Made by a program: the position numbers and the translations under genes. Below are positions 50,540-56,669 of a stretch of DNA of 56,669 nucleotides, one piece after another. This DNA comes from an uncultured Alphaproteobacteria bacterium (lineage in GTDB: Bacteria; Pseudomonadota; Alphaproteobacteria; UBA7985). Within the stretch, counting starts at the first letter, position 1. Every line of letters begins with the position of its first letter. The notes below the pieces were generated by a model, which saw only the letters and a program-made list of their open reading frames with translations, had not been told where the DNA came from and made no database searches. The stretch is taken from positions 1 through 56,669 of the forward strand of contig CAJQLX010000043.1 in NCBI GenBank assembly GCA_905479265.1. The letters run 5' to 3'.

Positions 50540-51649
50540 TTAGAATGAAAGCCGAATGTCGGCCTTGCCTTCGTGCGTGTGAACCGCCTCTGGCAGTGCC
50601 TCATCTTCCAACCGGGAGAACTCATAGCCGACCTCTAAGTCAACACCGGTGGAGATCCCGATGACCATGTCGGTGGTGATGGAGGACGTGCTGACGTTTT
50701 CATCGTGGGACCGTCTGTGCTGTCCAGCCACGCCATAGGTGTAGCGGCCCGATTTGTTCGATACGCCGATGTCATAGATCGACTGAGTTTCGATCCGTGT
50801 TGTGCCGTCGTAGAACGCTTCGAGCCCGGCGCTGGCGCCAAAGGTCAGGCGTCCATATTCCATCATCGCGCCAGCCCGGCCACCGTACAGCTGACCTTCA
50901 CCGGTCGCCAGCCCACCGGTCAGCGGCGTGCCTGCGAAATCGAAACTACCGTCACGGATGACTTCGATGCCATAGGCCGGGGTTACGGTCCGCACGGGGC
51001 GTCGCCACAAAACGCCGCCATATTGGCGATTGTCTTGGTCGGCTGCGGCGACAAGCTCCCACGGCCCTTGCCGGGTGCCAACGGAACCCGCAAAATTGCC
51101 CCCGACGCCGCTTGAGAATGCTGCTGTTGTTGGCTCTATCACGCCATTCAACGCGCCAGCGCCAGTGGTAACGATGGTGCCCGGGGTAAATCGGCCAGCC
51201 ATAACGTCCAGGGTTGGCGAGTCGATAAAGGCGTAGGCCTCGATACCGTCTGCTGAGATGTTTGCGGTAAACGGATCCGTGGCGTCATAGACGTAGGTGG
51301 CATCGCCCGTCGCGGAAAGCGTCGCGCCAAATGTCCAGCCTTGCGGCGAGGTTTGGCGGATTGTACCCGCGACCGAGCCTTCGACGAACCCGCCGTACTG
51401 GTCCAATTCATCGGCCCGAACATAGGTTCCACCGACGGCGAAATCACCGTTGAGCTGGAACGAGCTATGAGCGCCAAGATTAAAGATCTTGGGCTTAACG
51501 AACAGGTGGGGGGCGAAACCTTGGTATTGGCCGTAGTTGCCGCCGTTCCCAATCAATTCGGCGTTGCGAATGACTTGAGCGCTGACCGGGGCGGCGCACA
51601 TGGACGCGCCCAGTGCCGCTCCCCCGAGGAGAGTAAGGAGTTTTTTCAT
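50540..51649 (-). CDS. Outer-membrane beta-barrel protein
   Basis: 369 residues. A signal peptide is clear (MKKLLTLLGGAALGASMCAAPVSA, cleavage before Q). The mature part has repeated amphipathic strands rich in Gly and aromatic residues (GRLTFGASAGLEAFYDG, GRYTYGVAGQHRR) and ends in Phe after ADIRLS, which is the usual signature for BAM-dependent insertion. No specific porin family recognised. The ATG has AGGA upstream and lies 11 bases after the haloperoxidase-like gene, so both are one transcription unit. Confidence 0.8.
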   Translation of the reverse strand: MKKLLTLLGGAALGASMCAAPVSAQVIRNAELIGNGGNYGQYQGFAPHLFVKPKIFNLGAHSSFQLNGDFAVGGTYVRADELDQYGGFVEGSVAGTIRQTSPQGWTFGATLSATGDATYVYDATDPFTANISADGIEAYAFIDSPTLDVMAGRFTPGTIVTTGAGALNGVIEPTTAAFSSGVGGNFAGSVGTRQGPWELVAAADQDNRQYGGVLWRRPVRTVTPAYGIEVIRDGSFDFAGTPLTGGLATGEGQLYGGRAGAMMEYGRLTFGASAGLEAFYDGTTRIETQSIYDIGVSNKSGRYTYGVAGQHRRSHDENVSTSSITTDMVIGISTGVDLEVGYEFSRLEDEALPEAVHTHEGKADIRLSF

Positions 51650-51660
51650 TTTTTATGTCC

Positions 51661-53061
51661 TTAGCGTGCGACAGGAAGGAAGTGGTTTTCGAAGATTTCA
51701 TCCGCGATCCGCCCACCTGCGCTCATGGCTTGGTCGTGGTCAAAGGTCCAATGCACACCGCCCCAAATGCGGCTCAGACCATTTTCAACGGCTGTTTCCC
51801 AAACAGAAGTATAGTGTCGTTCAGTCCCAATCAGCTGATCCGGCCACCAGGCCAGATCCACCGGACGAAGCTTGAACTTAACCCGGTCTGTGCCCATCAG
51901 ATGCTGAATCATCCGAGCGCCCGCAGCGCCAAACGTGGAGTGACCGGACGTGTAAGCAGGGAAGGGAGGCGTGAGGATCAGTGATGACCAACTCGCGTCC
52001 ATATCCATGCCGGATTCCTTGTAGCCCGGGATGGTGTAAGCCCGGCGGCGAATAACGGTTTCGGGCCTTACGATGTCGTAGGTGTATTTGCTGTCCCACG
52101 CTGAGATTCCAGCATCGCCACTGGCCATACCCATCAGCGCCATGGCGCGGGCCATGTCATAGGTATCAACACGACCTTGCAGCAGTTGCGCACCAATGAT
52201 GATGAAGTGACCACCCGGGGTCGCGCCCCGTGGCCCGTCTTCCCAGAAAAAGGCGATGTGAGCTTCATCATCGGTGCGGTTTTGCGATTTGGTTCCGCCA
52301 AGCTCCTGAATCAGCTTCACGTCGTCCCAAAACACATTCGACCGTGGGTCCGGGAACCGCTCTGCGCGGAACTTTTTGATGTCCTGAACGCCAATTGGAT
52401 CCACCATGCCCCAGCTCGGCAGCAGAGGGCGGATGAACGGGTCAATTCGGGGGCCAATGCCGGACTCGTAAACCGGCAATGTTGGCTCCCAGGCCAGCAC
52501 GTGGTTCCGCTTCTGCATTACGTCGCGGTAGTAGGGGGCTTTGGTGGATTCTGAACCATCACGCGCCCGGCGCGCCGCAATCTTCTGCCCGACATGCTTG
52601 CCCCAACGCATACCCAGCGTTTTGGCTTCACCGTTTGGAATCTTGTTCAGCATACGGTTTCGGAAGCCACGGAACGAGCGTTGCATGGCCGTTGTAAGCG
52701 CGATCTCTGTCGCGACATGATAGGCGGCAAGCATATCGCCGTTTTCCGGACCTCGGCCAAACCCCATGGAGTCATTGTAACGACCACCAATCCCGTTCAT
52801 GGCAACAAAACCCGCCATCATACCAATGCCGAAAACACGGCTGGCTTCGGGGGGCGCCAAGCCATGGTCTCGCACGGCGAGCAGCATGGTATCGGTCCAC
52901 CGGAGCACGTCATCCATATTCTCTGGCGCGACGGTTTCTTCGATGTAAGATTTGCCGAAGTACTGAGCATGAGCGTGGGGGGCCAATGCTGCTGTCGCAA
53001 TGCTACCGCCAACCGCAGCGGCACTTCCTTGCAAAACTGAACGGCGATCAATTGCCTTCAT
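51661..53061 (-). CDS. Tat-exported vanadium-haloperoxidase-like (PAP2 superfamily) protein
   Basis: 466 residues. A Tat-type signal is seen at the N-terminus (DRRSVLQGSAAAVGG, cleavage near AHA-Q at about 32). Vanadate/phosphate-binding residues are in the order and spacing of vanadium chloroperoxidase: Lys326 and Arg333 (SKYTYDIVRP), Ser-Gly-His 373-375 (YTSGHSTF), and Arg432 and His438 (SRIWGGVHW), with the same K-to-R gap of 7 and R-to-H gap of 6. It may oxidise halides with H2O2 in the periplasm or act as an acid phosphatase; sequence cannot decide. The ATG at 53061 has AGAGGA upstream. Confidence 0.88.
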   Translation of the reverse strand: MKAIDRRSVLQGSAAAVGGSIATAALAPHAHAQYFGKSYIEETVAPENMDDVLRWTDTMLLAVRDHGLAPPEASRVFGIGMMAGFVAMNGIGGRYNDSMGFGRGPENGDMLAAYHVATEIALTTAMQRSFRGFRNRMLNKIPNGEAKTLGMRWGKHVGQKIAARRARDGSESTKAPYYRDVMQKRNHVLAWEPTLPVYESGIGPRIDPFIRPLLPSWGMVDPIGVQDIKKFRAERFPDPRSNVFWDDVKLIQELGGTKSQNRTDDEAHIAFFWEDGPRGATPGGHFIIIGAQLLQGRVDTYDMARAMALMGMASGDAGISAWDSKYTYDIVRPETVIRRRAYTIPGYKESGMDMDASWSSLILTPPFPAYTSGHSTFGAAGARMIQHLMGTDRVKFKLRPVDLAWWPDQLIGTERHYTSVWETAVENGLSRIWGGVHWTFDHDQAMSAGGRIADEIFENHFLPVAR

Positions 53062-53680
53062 GGTTGTCCTCTTTATCAACAAGCACACCGGTACGTGGCC
53101 TGTAAATTCCATTACCCAATAATAAGTCTGACCGGATTTTAAAAATTGAAATGCGATCGAGAAAAACTATTCAGGGGAGACCAATAGCAGGAACTGGGCC
53201 GACTCTCCCGGTGGCAATAAGAATTCGAAAAAACTTCAATTTTTAGGAAGATAACCCCAGTTTTCGGGAGGGATTTGGAGTAGAAAATGGCGCATGAACG
53301 CATAATTATTGTTTGGGTTTGACGAACTGAAAAAATGAGACGGCTTGCGTCGCTATATTGCTGATTTTAGGCGCATAAGGGCTGCTGACATGCCGTATTG
53401 ATAAAGCGCGCATAATCTTTCAGGTCAGAAATCAGAAATGCTTTCATGGCTTTGGGTTCGGCAAAATGCCGCAAAACAGGGAGATTTTGTCGAATGAGTT
53501 GCATTCCAAACAATAGCGGTGGTTTCGAACGCTATAATTTGTTGTTTTGCCCCCTTTGTTGATCAGTTGCCAAAATCCTTTTTGACGTCGATCGGTCTGG
53601 CTTACGCTTTGCTCTGACAGGGGGGAACACACCGAGGCCTTTTGTTATTTCGCAGAAAGCCTGAGCCGTAAGTAGATTTG
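53062..53680. other. AT-rich intergenic region
   Basis: About 620 bases without a supported gene, unusually long for this compact window. It should hold divergent promoters for the haloperoxidase-like gene and the next outer-membrane protein. It contains an inverted pair of AAAAATTGAA. Confidence 0.6.
53141..53244. repeat. Inverted pair of AAAAATTGAA (first intergenic)
   Basis: AAAAATTGAA at 53141-53150 and its reverse complement at 53235-53244; the match extends to 11 bases (TAAAAATTGAA). The same pair recurs at 55299-55356. Confidence 0.6.
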
Positions 53681-55045
53681 ATGTCCTCGAAACACGCTAA
53701 ATTCACACGCGAACAAGCGCCCTTGGTGGGCAGCAGCCTAAGGGCTTGGCTGTGCTGTTGTTCTGCGTTCGTGATACTGGGTGTTTCCCCGGAAGCGCAG
53801 GGGCAACTTTCGCAGTCTTTGAGCTATAATTTCAGCGCATCGACCTTCGACAGTTCATTGAACGTCGATCACGGCTTGCGGGGGATCGAGCTGGGCGTGC
53901 TGGATTTTAGCCTCAGCCAATCGACCTCTTACAGTTTGGATACGGGCTTGCTGGGTGACTACCAAGTCGGTGTCGATGTGAACGACGAGGAAAATTTCTT
54001 CGGTAACTTCAGTGGAACCTTGGGCTCGGACCTAAGGTCAATCGGCGGTTTTGCCGACAACCGCTTTGCGCGCGACAATTTTTCTGTTGGCGTATCGGCA
54101 AGCGGCAGTCTGGAATACACCAAGAGTACCGTGTTTGATGAAGGGTTGCTCGATCCTGATTTCGACTTCTTCGATTTTACCGATGAGGAGCTGGAAGCCA
54201 TCGTATGGGTTCCTTCGCACTTCGCCGAAGGCGCGGCTGCGCTAGAGGTGAATCGATTTTCGATTGGTCGGCTTAAAGTAAGGCCGAAGGCCGATGGCAC
54301 CATAGGCCATTCTGATTTCGGTGGCTTGACCTACAGCCTTGCCGCAGCGACGGGCTTTTCGATCGGCAGCAAAGATGGCGACGACGAATTCGACTTCTTC
54401 TTCGAAGAAAGTAACCTGAGCGCAAACGTGCCTGGTGGTGGTTACGGCGCCGGTGATGGCGAATTGGTTTTGGCGGCGGGCTATGATTCTGATGGCGTGG
54501 CCAAGCTGGCCGCGATTATCTTTAAAGGCTGGTCCCCGACCGACAAATTTGACCTTTCATTCGATGCCGAGGGCGGCGTGCAGTACCTGAGCGAAGAGGG
54601 CGTGGCCTTTGATGAAGGTTCGGTCCGGTTGGGCGCTGGTTTTCGGCCGGCGGAGAATTGGAACATCGATACCTCGCTAACAGTCGGCGCGTCAGAGGAG
54701 CTGATCCCCAGTTATTCCTTTGACGCCTCTTTGGATTATTCGAAGTTCCTGAGCTTCAGCCCTTTTGTGCGGTTCTCGGCTTTCTACTCGGAAGGGCAGG
54801 GTGACTATTCCCTGCCTGTCGGAGTCAACGCCACGGTTTATGACAAACTGCTGCTTTCTGCTGAAGTCACGCCGAGCTATGCGACGTTTGATGAGTCCTT
54901 TGAAGTCCGTGCATCAGGCAACGTGACCCTGCTGGGCCCACCCTTGTTAAAAGACGGAGCAAGCAGCGAATTTTCGCTCTCTGCCAGTGCTGCCCTGTAC
55001 AGCCAAGAGCGCAGTGTTTCGGTCAATGGCCGTTTCAGCTTCTAA
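53681..55045 (+). CDS. Exported beta-rich outer-membrane-like protein
   Basis: 454 residues. A signal region is seen after a polar start (RAWLCCCSAFVILGVSPEAQG, cleavage before QLSQS). The mature part is acidic, alternates hydrophobic and polar residues as in beta-barrels, has several DF/FF pairs (DPDFDFFDF, DEFDFFFEE) and ends RFSF, a terminal-Phe signature. No family recognised. The ATG at 53681 is used (a TTG three bases before is possible); the ribosome site is weak. It is not obviously related in sequence to the barrel at 50540. Confidence 0.7.
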   Translation: MSSKHAKFTREQAPLVGSSLRAWLCCCSAFVILGVSPEAQGQLSQSLSYNFSASTFDSSLNVDHGLRGIELGVLDFSLSQSTSYSLDTGLLGDYQVGVDVNDEENFFGNFSGTLGSDLRSIGGFADNRFARDNFSVGVSASGSLEYTKSTVFDEGLLDPDFDFFDFTDEELEAIVWVPSHFAEGAAALEVNRFSIGRLKVRPKADGTIGHSDFGGLTYSLAAATGFSIGSKDGDDEFDFFFEESNLSANVPGGGYGAGDGELVLAAGYDSDGVAKLAAIIFKGWSPTDKFDLSFDAEGGVQYLSEEGVAFDEGSVRLGAGFRPAENWNIDTSLTVGASEELIPSYSFDASLDYSKFLSFSPFVRFSAFYSEGQGDYSLPVGVNATVYDKLLLSAEVTPSYATFDESFEVRASGNVTLLGPPLLKDGASSEFSLSASAALYSQERSVSVNGRFSF

Positions 55046-55578: not shown

Positions 55579-56669
55579 ATGCGATATTTTCTCATGATTT
55601 TGGCCATTATGGTGGCCAGTTTGGGGATAAACCAAACAGCTTCTGCGCAGGCGTGTACGGGCTTTGCACTCTTGCAGGATGGCGATCAGTATACAGATTT
55701 AGGCGGCGGCCGAGCATTGCTCGACAACCGATGTTATCAACGCGCCCTGTGTATTGGTGGGACAATTTCAAACCTTGGCAGCAACCTCTATGGCTGTTTC
55801 GTTGAGCCAGGCTGTGAGGGCACCAAGAGTTTGCCGTTGAACGGTGTCGCGGCGAAAAATGCGGACGAAAGCTGGTCCGTTGGTGGCACCACAAGGGTCT
55901 ACTGTAACGTCATTTGTCCCGTTGGAGCGACTTTGACCAAGCAGGCCGGTAACACGTATTACTGTAAGGCTGAAGCGCCAGCGTGTAACGGGGTCGGCCA
56001 GCTGGAACTGGGCGACAAAATCTGGAAGCGCGCGGCGAACATGTGGAAGACCGAAGACGGTCGGAACACCTACTGTTCGGTTCAGTGCCCGGCGGGCTCG
56101 ACGTTGACGCACCAATCTGGCGATACGCACTACTGTAAGCCGAATGCGCCGGTGTGTAATGGCGTTGGGCAGTTGAAGTCCGGTGATGAGATCTGGAAGC
56201 GTGCTTCGAACATGTGGAAGACCAAAGACGGATCGAAAACGTACTGTTCGGTGAAGTGTGAGAACGGCACGACGCTGACCAAAACGAATGGTGACACGCA
56301 CGTTTGTAAGCCTAACGCGCCAGTGTGTAATGGCGTTGGTCAGTTGAAGTCCGGCGACAAAATCTGGAAGCGCGCAGCGAACATGTGGAAGACCAGAGAC
56401 GGTCAGAACACCTATTGTTCGGTAAAGTGTGAAAGCGGCACGACGCTGACCCACGTCAAAGGCGACACGCACATCTGTAAGCCGAACCCCCTGACCTGTC
56501 AGCAGATGTCTGACCGGTATGGCGTGAGCCATTTCAGCACTTGGGGCACCGCAACAGCGGCAATCAAGGCCGATTGGCAGGCGCAGAAATGCGCGACCTG
56601 TAAGCCCGGCCACGTTAAGGACGCCGAAGGCAAGTGTGGAAACCCTGCACCTGTTTGTAATGGCGTTGG
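55579..56669 (+). CDS. Secreted cysteine-rich 57-residue-repeat protein (partial, runs off the window)
   Basis: The frame is open from ATG 55579 to the window edge, 363 codons seen. A signal peptide is clear (MRYFLMILAIMVASLG..., cleavage ASA-Q at residue 23/24). The start is preceded by GGAAAGATGAG. A Cys-containing head (about 26-80) is followed by a degenerate repeat, three near-identical 57-residue repeats, a 52-residue linker with CATCKPG, and the start of a further repeat (PAPVCNGVG). Each full repeat has CNGVGQL, GDKIWKRA-NMWKT, TYCSVxC and THxCKPN, giving Cys at repeat positions 4, 34, 38 and 54, an even number fitting disulfides. No family is recognised. I infer an extracellular or periplasmic disulfide-rich protein; function unknown. 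Confidence 0.85.
   Translation, partial: MRYFLMILAIMVASLGINQTASAQACTGFALLQDGDQYTDLGGGRALLDNRCYQRALCIGGTISNLGSNLYGCFVEPGCEGTKSLPLNGVAAKNADESWSVGGTTRVYCNVICPVGATLTKQAGNTYYCKAEAPACNGVGQLELGDKIWKRAANMWKTEDGRNTYCSVQCPAGSTLTHQSGDTHYCKPNAPVCNGVGQLKSGDEIWKRASNMWKTKDGSKTYCSVKCENGTTLTKTNGDTHVCKPNAPVCNGVGQLKSGDKIWKRAANMWKTRDGQNTYCSVKCESGTTLTHVKGDTHICKPNPLTCQQMSDRYGVSHFSTWGTATAAIKADWQAQKCATCKPGHVKDAEGKCGNPAPVCNGV
55975..56487 (+). repeat. Tandem 171-bp repeat, three copies
   Basis: Copies start at 55975, 56146 and 56317, each exactly 171 bases (57 codons). They are highly similar at DNA as well as protein level, for example GCGAACATGTGGAAGACC in copies 1 and 3. A fourth copy begins at 56647 after an unrelated 159-base linker. 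Confidence 0.92.

Follow-up and report, generated by a model that had tools for sequence, protein, structure and literature searches.

EGF-like and CCP/sushi arrays consist of tandem extracellular modules of about 40-60 residues, rich in disulfides, with four or six cysteines and mostly beta structure. Cysteine-rich Helicobacter proteins with Sel1-like repeats are likewise exported, tandem and disulfide-stabilised, and are helical. The stretch of DNA analysed here (the window, 56,669 nucleotides from an uncultured alphaproteobacterium) ends within a gene for a protein of this same general kind, with a signal peptide, an even number of cysteines per repeat, a tandem array and the oxidising machinery all present. 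Like the EGF-like and CCP/sushi proteins, it has the marks of export and is built of modules, apparently mostly beta, set head to tail and variable in number; it differs from them in the spacing of its repeat unit, C-x29-C-x3-C-x15-C, and in the tryptophan between Cys 1 and Cys 2. With the Helicobacter proteins it shares the character of an exported bacterial tandem repeat with disulfides (predicted in this case), but the window unit is modelled as all-beta rather than helical. A literature search found nothing relevant on similar repeat proteins. The general kind is familiar, but the repeat itself forms an orphan domain family with no previous description, and in the genomes searched it is confined to a single genus.

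The reading frame for this exported protein, at 55579-56667 (+), runs without a stop up to the end of the contig, which interrupts the repeat array inside the gene. Its parts are the following.

55579..55647, + strand: signal peptide MRYFLMILAIMVASLGINQTASA, residues 1-23, Sec type, with the hydrophobic core and AxA-type site read from the translation
55654..55812, + strand: unit 1, degenerate, 53 aa, four Cys, without the Trp; assigned by Cys order and array position
55813..55983, + strand: unit 2, 57 aa, 32-42% identical to units 3-5; assigned by profile and Cys positions
55984..56154, + strand: unit 3, 57 aa; assigned by profile, TRF and Cys positions
56155..56325, + strand: unit 4, 57 aa; assigned by profile, TRF and Cys positions; modelled jointly with unit 5
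56326..56496, + strand: unit 5, 57 aa; assigned by profile, TRF and Cys positions; modelled jointly with unit 4
56497..56655, + strand: spacer module, 53 aa, four Cys (CQQMSDRYGV...GKCGNPAPV), not of the unit type
56656..56669, + strand: first 14 bases of the next unit, truncated by the contig end

Cleavage of the signal peptide is placed after ASA, before Gln24, as read from the translation. A bacterial lipoprotein was considered and rejected by eye, there being no lipobox: AQAC has Gln at -2, and the ASA site precedes Gln24. No membrane anchor is present in the parts of the repeat protein that can be seen, and a promoter scan of the gene gave no site above chance. An antisense frame, 55768-56667 (-), is open over most of the array; it encodes no plausible protein, and it is repetitive because the sense strand repeats.

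An earlier, sequence-only reading of the window had described a secreted, cysteine-rich protein of 57-residue repeats. This is borne out by the signal peptide, by the four cysteines of each unit and by the self-identity of the protein, which at a lag of 57 reaches 117 of 306 positions, whereas in 2000 shuffles no lag between 30 and 120 gave more than 41, a margin that puts the repeat well outside chance. Each 57-aa unit corresponds to 171 bases, and TRF reports a period of 171 with 3.1 copies and 78% matches. The cysteines lie at positions 1/31/35/51 of the 57-aa units and 1/27/33/48 of unit 1, and every complete module of the window reading frame has four. The earlier picture of one repeat type holds for the four 57-aa units, but unit 1 is 53 aa long and the segment at 56497-56655 is a different four-Cys module. 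Similarly, the IWKRAxNMWKT core taken to be conserved is found in units 3-5, to which, in the window species, it is specific; in the family as a whole the only largely conserved residues are one Trp (position 21), Y30, all four Cys and some Gly/Leu. The profile match of unit 1 is circular, as this unit is itself a row of the profile alignment (A1). The charge of the unit 5 type is about +5.

The genome to which the window belongs (G000) has 61 contigs and 2.89 Mb and is 96% complete; the window is its contig C43. Elsewhere in this genome the repeat occurs only at the start of contig C50 (G000:C50 1-679, locus L004). These 679 bases encode the last part of a second spacer module, then two 57-aa units and a four-Cys C-terminal domain of 78 aa, closed by an intact stop and then by a terminator hairpin and T run that a simple pattern scan had missed. 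The spacer copies on C43 and C50 are only 85% identical at the DNA level, so the two contigs share no overlap; the gap between them holds, at a minimum, the greater part of one unit and the beginning of a spacer. With glcDEF on one side and an ABC exporter on the other, the flanking gene order matches that of relatives, and C43 and C50 almost certainly carry the two ends of a single gene. A stop or frameshift just past the edge had been named as the sign of a decaying gene. As far as the assembly allows, the C50 end is open and leads into a family-specific C-terminal domain.

Comparison of units 3, 4 and 5 and the C50 pair gives dN/dS values of 0.03-0.30; between units 3-5, dS is 0.8-1.8, all of these being rough Nei-Gojobori values on 57 codons. 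Since the units differ mainly at synonymous sites, these codon comparisons indicate that purifying selection maintains them and that the gene is not decaying. The copies had also been called close at the DNA level, which is true of the two C50 units (93% identity, dS 0.26), but units 3-5 share a moderate 71-80%, and their dS speaks against the recent duplication proposed for the window copies. Most copies are old, with only the last pair, on C50, fairly recent.

A search with the single protein found relatives only in G003 and G001, both of the same genus (best E 1e-29 to 4e-5 for one genome), and among 11 genomes of the order a 19-unit profile matched only G000, G001 and G003; matches to units that are themselves rows of the profile are built in, and the initial finds came from the single protein. 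The unit family is present in 3/6 genomes of the genus. In samples of 385 genomes from the class and 398 from the phylum, the unit profile matched its own genome only, as did a profile of unit plus C-terminal domain over 289 genomes of the class. Among the genomes of 84,980 species the single protein found no relative, and a four-row alignment searched against the same type of set returned only a contig of the same genus, PAFB01000112.1 (MAG Rhodospirillaceae bacterium MED834); both scans need short conserved peptides, and distant relatives could escape them. Phage records, plasmid records and viral contigs held no relative. In the genomes searched, the domain is restricted to part of one genus.

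Three architectures are found. The first is a long array at the glcF site, seen in G000, G001 and G003; the second, a signal peptide with three units, lies beside a LysE-like gene in G001 and G003; the third, also in G001 and G003, combines a signal peptide, one unit and the C-terminal domain. G000 shows only the long array, which in both G000 and G001 is broken by a contig end. The comparison of copy number in related genomes that had been suggested gives different counts between species, from 0 to at least 7 units, and array expansion appears to have been independent in each. Nearly every unit of every relative has four Cys, and the three-unit paralog of G003 has exactly 12, all within units. 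In a tree of the units the two three-unit proteins pair unit for unit, and most other forks are unresolved, so that this pairing is the one feature of the tree relied on here.

Some details of the G003 genes may be recorded here. Its array (L055 923-1735) seems to be repeated in three-unit blocks (units 0~3, 1~4), unlike the window array. At about 900-970 of L055 (G003:C125) the antisense end of a porin-like gene abuts the array with no signal peptide between them; this junction probably comes from chimeric assembly where a short stretch is shared, or else from a real deletion, and GTGCTGACGGTTACTGGCGCTT at the junction recurs at ~1432. In the one-unit paralog (G003c, L060 3440-3898 (-)) one of the C-terminal domain cysteines has been lost, the sequence reading VRDMPIW vs VRCMPNW in G001.

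The interval between glcF and the ABC exporter differs in content among the genomes and is therefore regarded as a variable island. In G005 and G002, glcF is directly followed by the exporter with no array gene at the site, and in G004 only a barrel-like gene separates them. The repeat gene occupies the interval in G003, and in G000 porin-like, PAP2/haloperoxidase-like, barrel-like and repeat genes all lie there, with the counterpart of the ABC exporter beginning at C50 position 856.

The proposal that the repeat belongs to no named domain stands: Pfam, NCBIfam and PHROG gave no convincing model match to the repeat protein, no Pfam model reached its cut-off on the window protein, the spacer module had no Pfam match, and a sequence search of the PDB gave nothing significant for the array protein or the unit profile. 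EGF-like modules (cEGF, PF12662) were rejected, the best score being 22.7 bits, in one relative, vs a cut-off of 26.6, with a C-x3-C spacing here; a WW-domain LPxGW-like match of the C-terminal domain to the PDB was spread over low-scoring repeats and judged to be chance.

An AlphaFold2 model of units 4-5, built with 13 related sequences, has a mean pLDDT of 88.8 and six short beta strands per unit, at a pTM of 0.53 and with the angle between the two units not fixed. A second model repeats the same strands; its C-terminal domain is unreliable (pLDDT ~45). Foldseek against the PDB and viral models gave no match at E < 0.001. VIA-align placed the unit closest to a circular permutant of the alpha-spectrin SH3 domain (1tuc; Z 3.8, rmsd 2.6, 47 residues; Z 3.1 in a second search), followed by Argos, colipase and MIT1 at Z 2-3 (2.1-3.0), all weak values of a size that can come from a common arrangement alone. 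As these values are in the chance range the unit is given no fold, and with a best Z of 3.8 function is not readable from the fold. The unit differs from SH3-like small beta barrels in having four Cys, and no sequence relation to them was found. Colipase, Argos and MIT1 do have small disulfide-rich beta hairpin modules, but they are eukaryotic and their scores not significant.

DsbB is encoded in 5/6 genomes of the genus, with two copies in G000. Given export, four Cys per module and the presence of DsbB, disulfide-locked modules are likely, as the sequence-only reading had supposed. A secretin is also present in G000, and nothing ties it to the repeat protein; the repeat gene has no link to any ligand, partner, anchor or secretion system. 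We put at roughly 50% the probability that the gene encodes a Sec-exported, beads-on-a-string, disulfide-locked binding protein of the periplasm or cell surface, remodelled in each species at the variable island. The modular protein would be exported by Sec, and each unit of 53-57 residues would adopt a small all-beta fold, held together most likely by two disulfides. Units set head to tail, with the second module type interposed, would form a rod ending in the separate four-Cys C-terminal domain. Such a multivalent array of stable basic modules, each with the conserved Trp, could bind with higher avidity, in an adhesin-like manner or to an envelope ligand, and duplication would alter the length of the array in each species. 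We infer the disulfides, the rod shape, the surface or periplasmic location and the binding function, the last because a basic multivalent array with a conserved Trp fits it. A wider proposal is more tentative and falls short of an even chance: that a new disulfide-pinned all-beta domain family, with no confident fold relative, arose in one marine alphaproteobacterial genus and was remodelled at the variable island, in unit number, interposed modules and three architectures, and that it acts as a binding array at the surface or in the envelope, specific to the species.

The best surviving alternative is a structural rod or spacer of the envelope, whose modules would provide length and stiffness while the C-terminal domain alone did the work, e.g. 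anchoring or binding. The C-terminal domain is indeed common to the long array and the one-unit paralog while the number of units varies, and the units, though under purifying selection, have no obvious active site. The three-unit paralog, however, has no C-terminal domain, so units are useful without it, and a purely structural role is on balance unlikely.

Still less probable is a secreted inhibitor or effector-like Cys-rich protein, such as a multi-headed protease inhibitor directed against neighbours or grazers. Inhibitors typically have tandem small disulfide-rich modules, and the weak resemblance to Argos and colipase modules would be in keeping with one, though these fold scores are within the range of chance. 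The protein of one relative, G003a, narrowly passes the Antistasin (PF02822) cut-off for whole proteins, which is not the strong known-domain match that might have overturned the sequence-only reading. That match spans 14 residues; the six-Cys antistasin motif, CxPxxCxxxCxxGxxxDxxGCxxC, is absent in 7/7 proteins, and the window protein falls below the cut-off. The unit has a short CxxxCxxG stretch like that of Antistasin but is about twice as long.

A metal-binding protein, with zinc or some other metal held by the four Cys of every unit, is very improbable. The YCxxxC stretch can be aligned with L24e, a ribosomal protein that binds zinc, but at a profile E of 0.05 the match is not significant, only the CxxxC half of the L24e-type treble clef is present with the CxxC knuckle missing, and in a protein exported from a DsbB-carrying genome the cysteines would usually be oxidised. 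Least probable of all is that the orphan gene is decaying, or that C43 and C50 carry two gene fragments unrelated to each other. Contig ends do break the gene in two genomes, and the contig of G003 has a chimeric look, but short-read assemblies commonly break at arrays, both halves are open with their units under purifying selection, and the C50 half runs through a conserved domain to its stop and terminator, among flanking genes in the order of the relatives.

Whether or not the binding array is the right reading, this is a small and well-delimited domain family whose expansion can be traced within one genus, from none through one unit and three units to long arrays. Without a ligand it settles no long-standing question, but it offers a handy case for the origin and spread of orphan disulfide-rich domains in bacteria. 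Because short-read assemblies break at arrays of this sort, the copy numbers seen in public MAGs are to be read as minimum values.

Several other proteins encoded in the window also have no Pfam match. A barrel-like exported protein is encoded beside the repeat gene (53678-55045), and a 25% identical protein stands alone at the island of G004 (L054). In the same island, after glcF, 50540-53112 encodes a porin-like protein with no Pfam match together with a PAP2/vanadium-haloperoxidase-like exported protein. At the left end of the window, 150-2099 encodes a Thr/Asp-rich protein of 649 aa, again matching no Pfam model.
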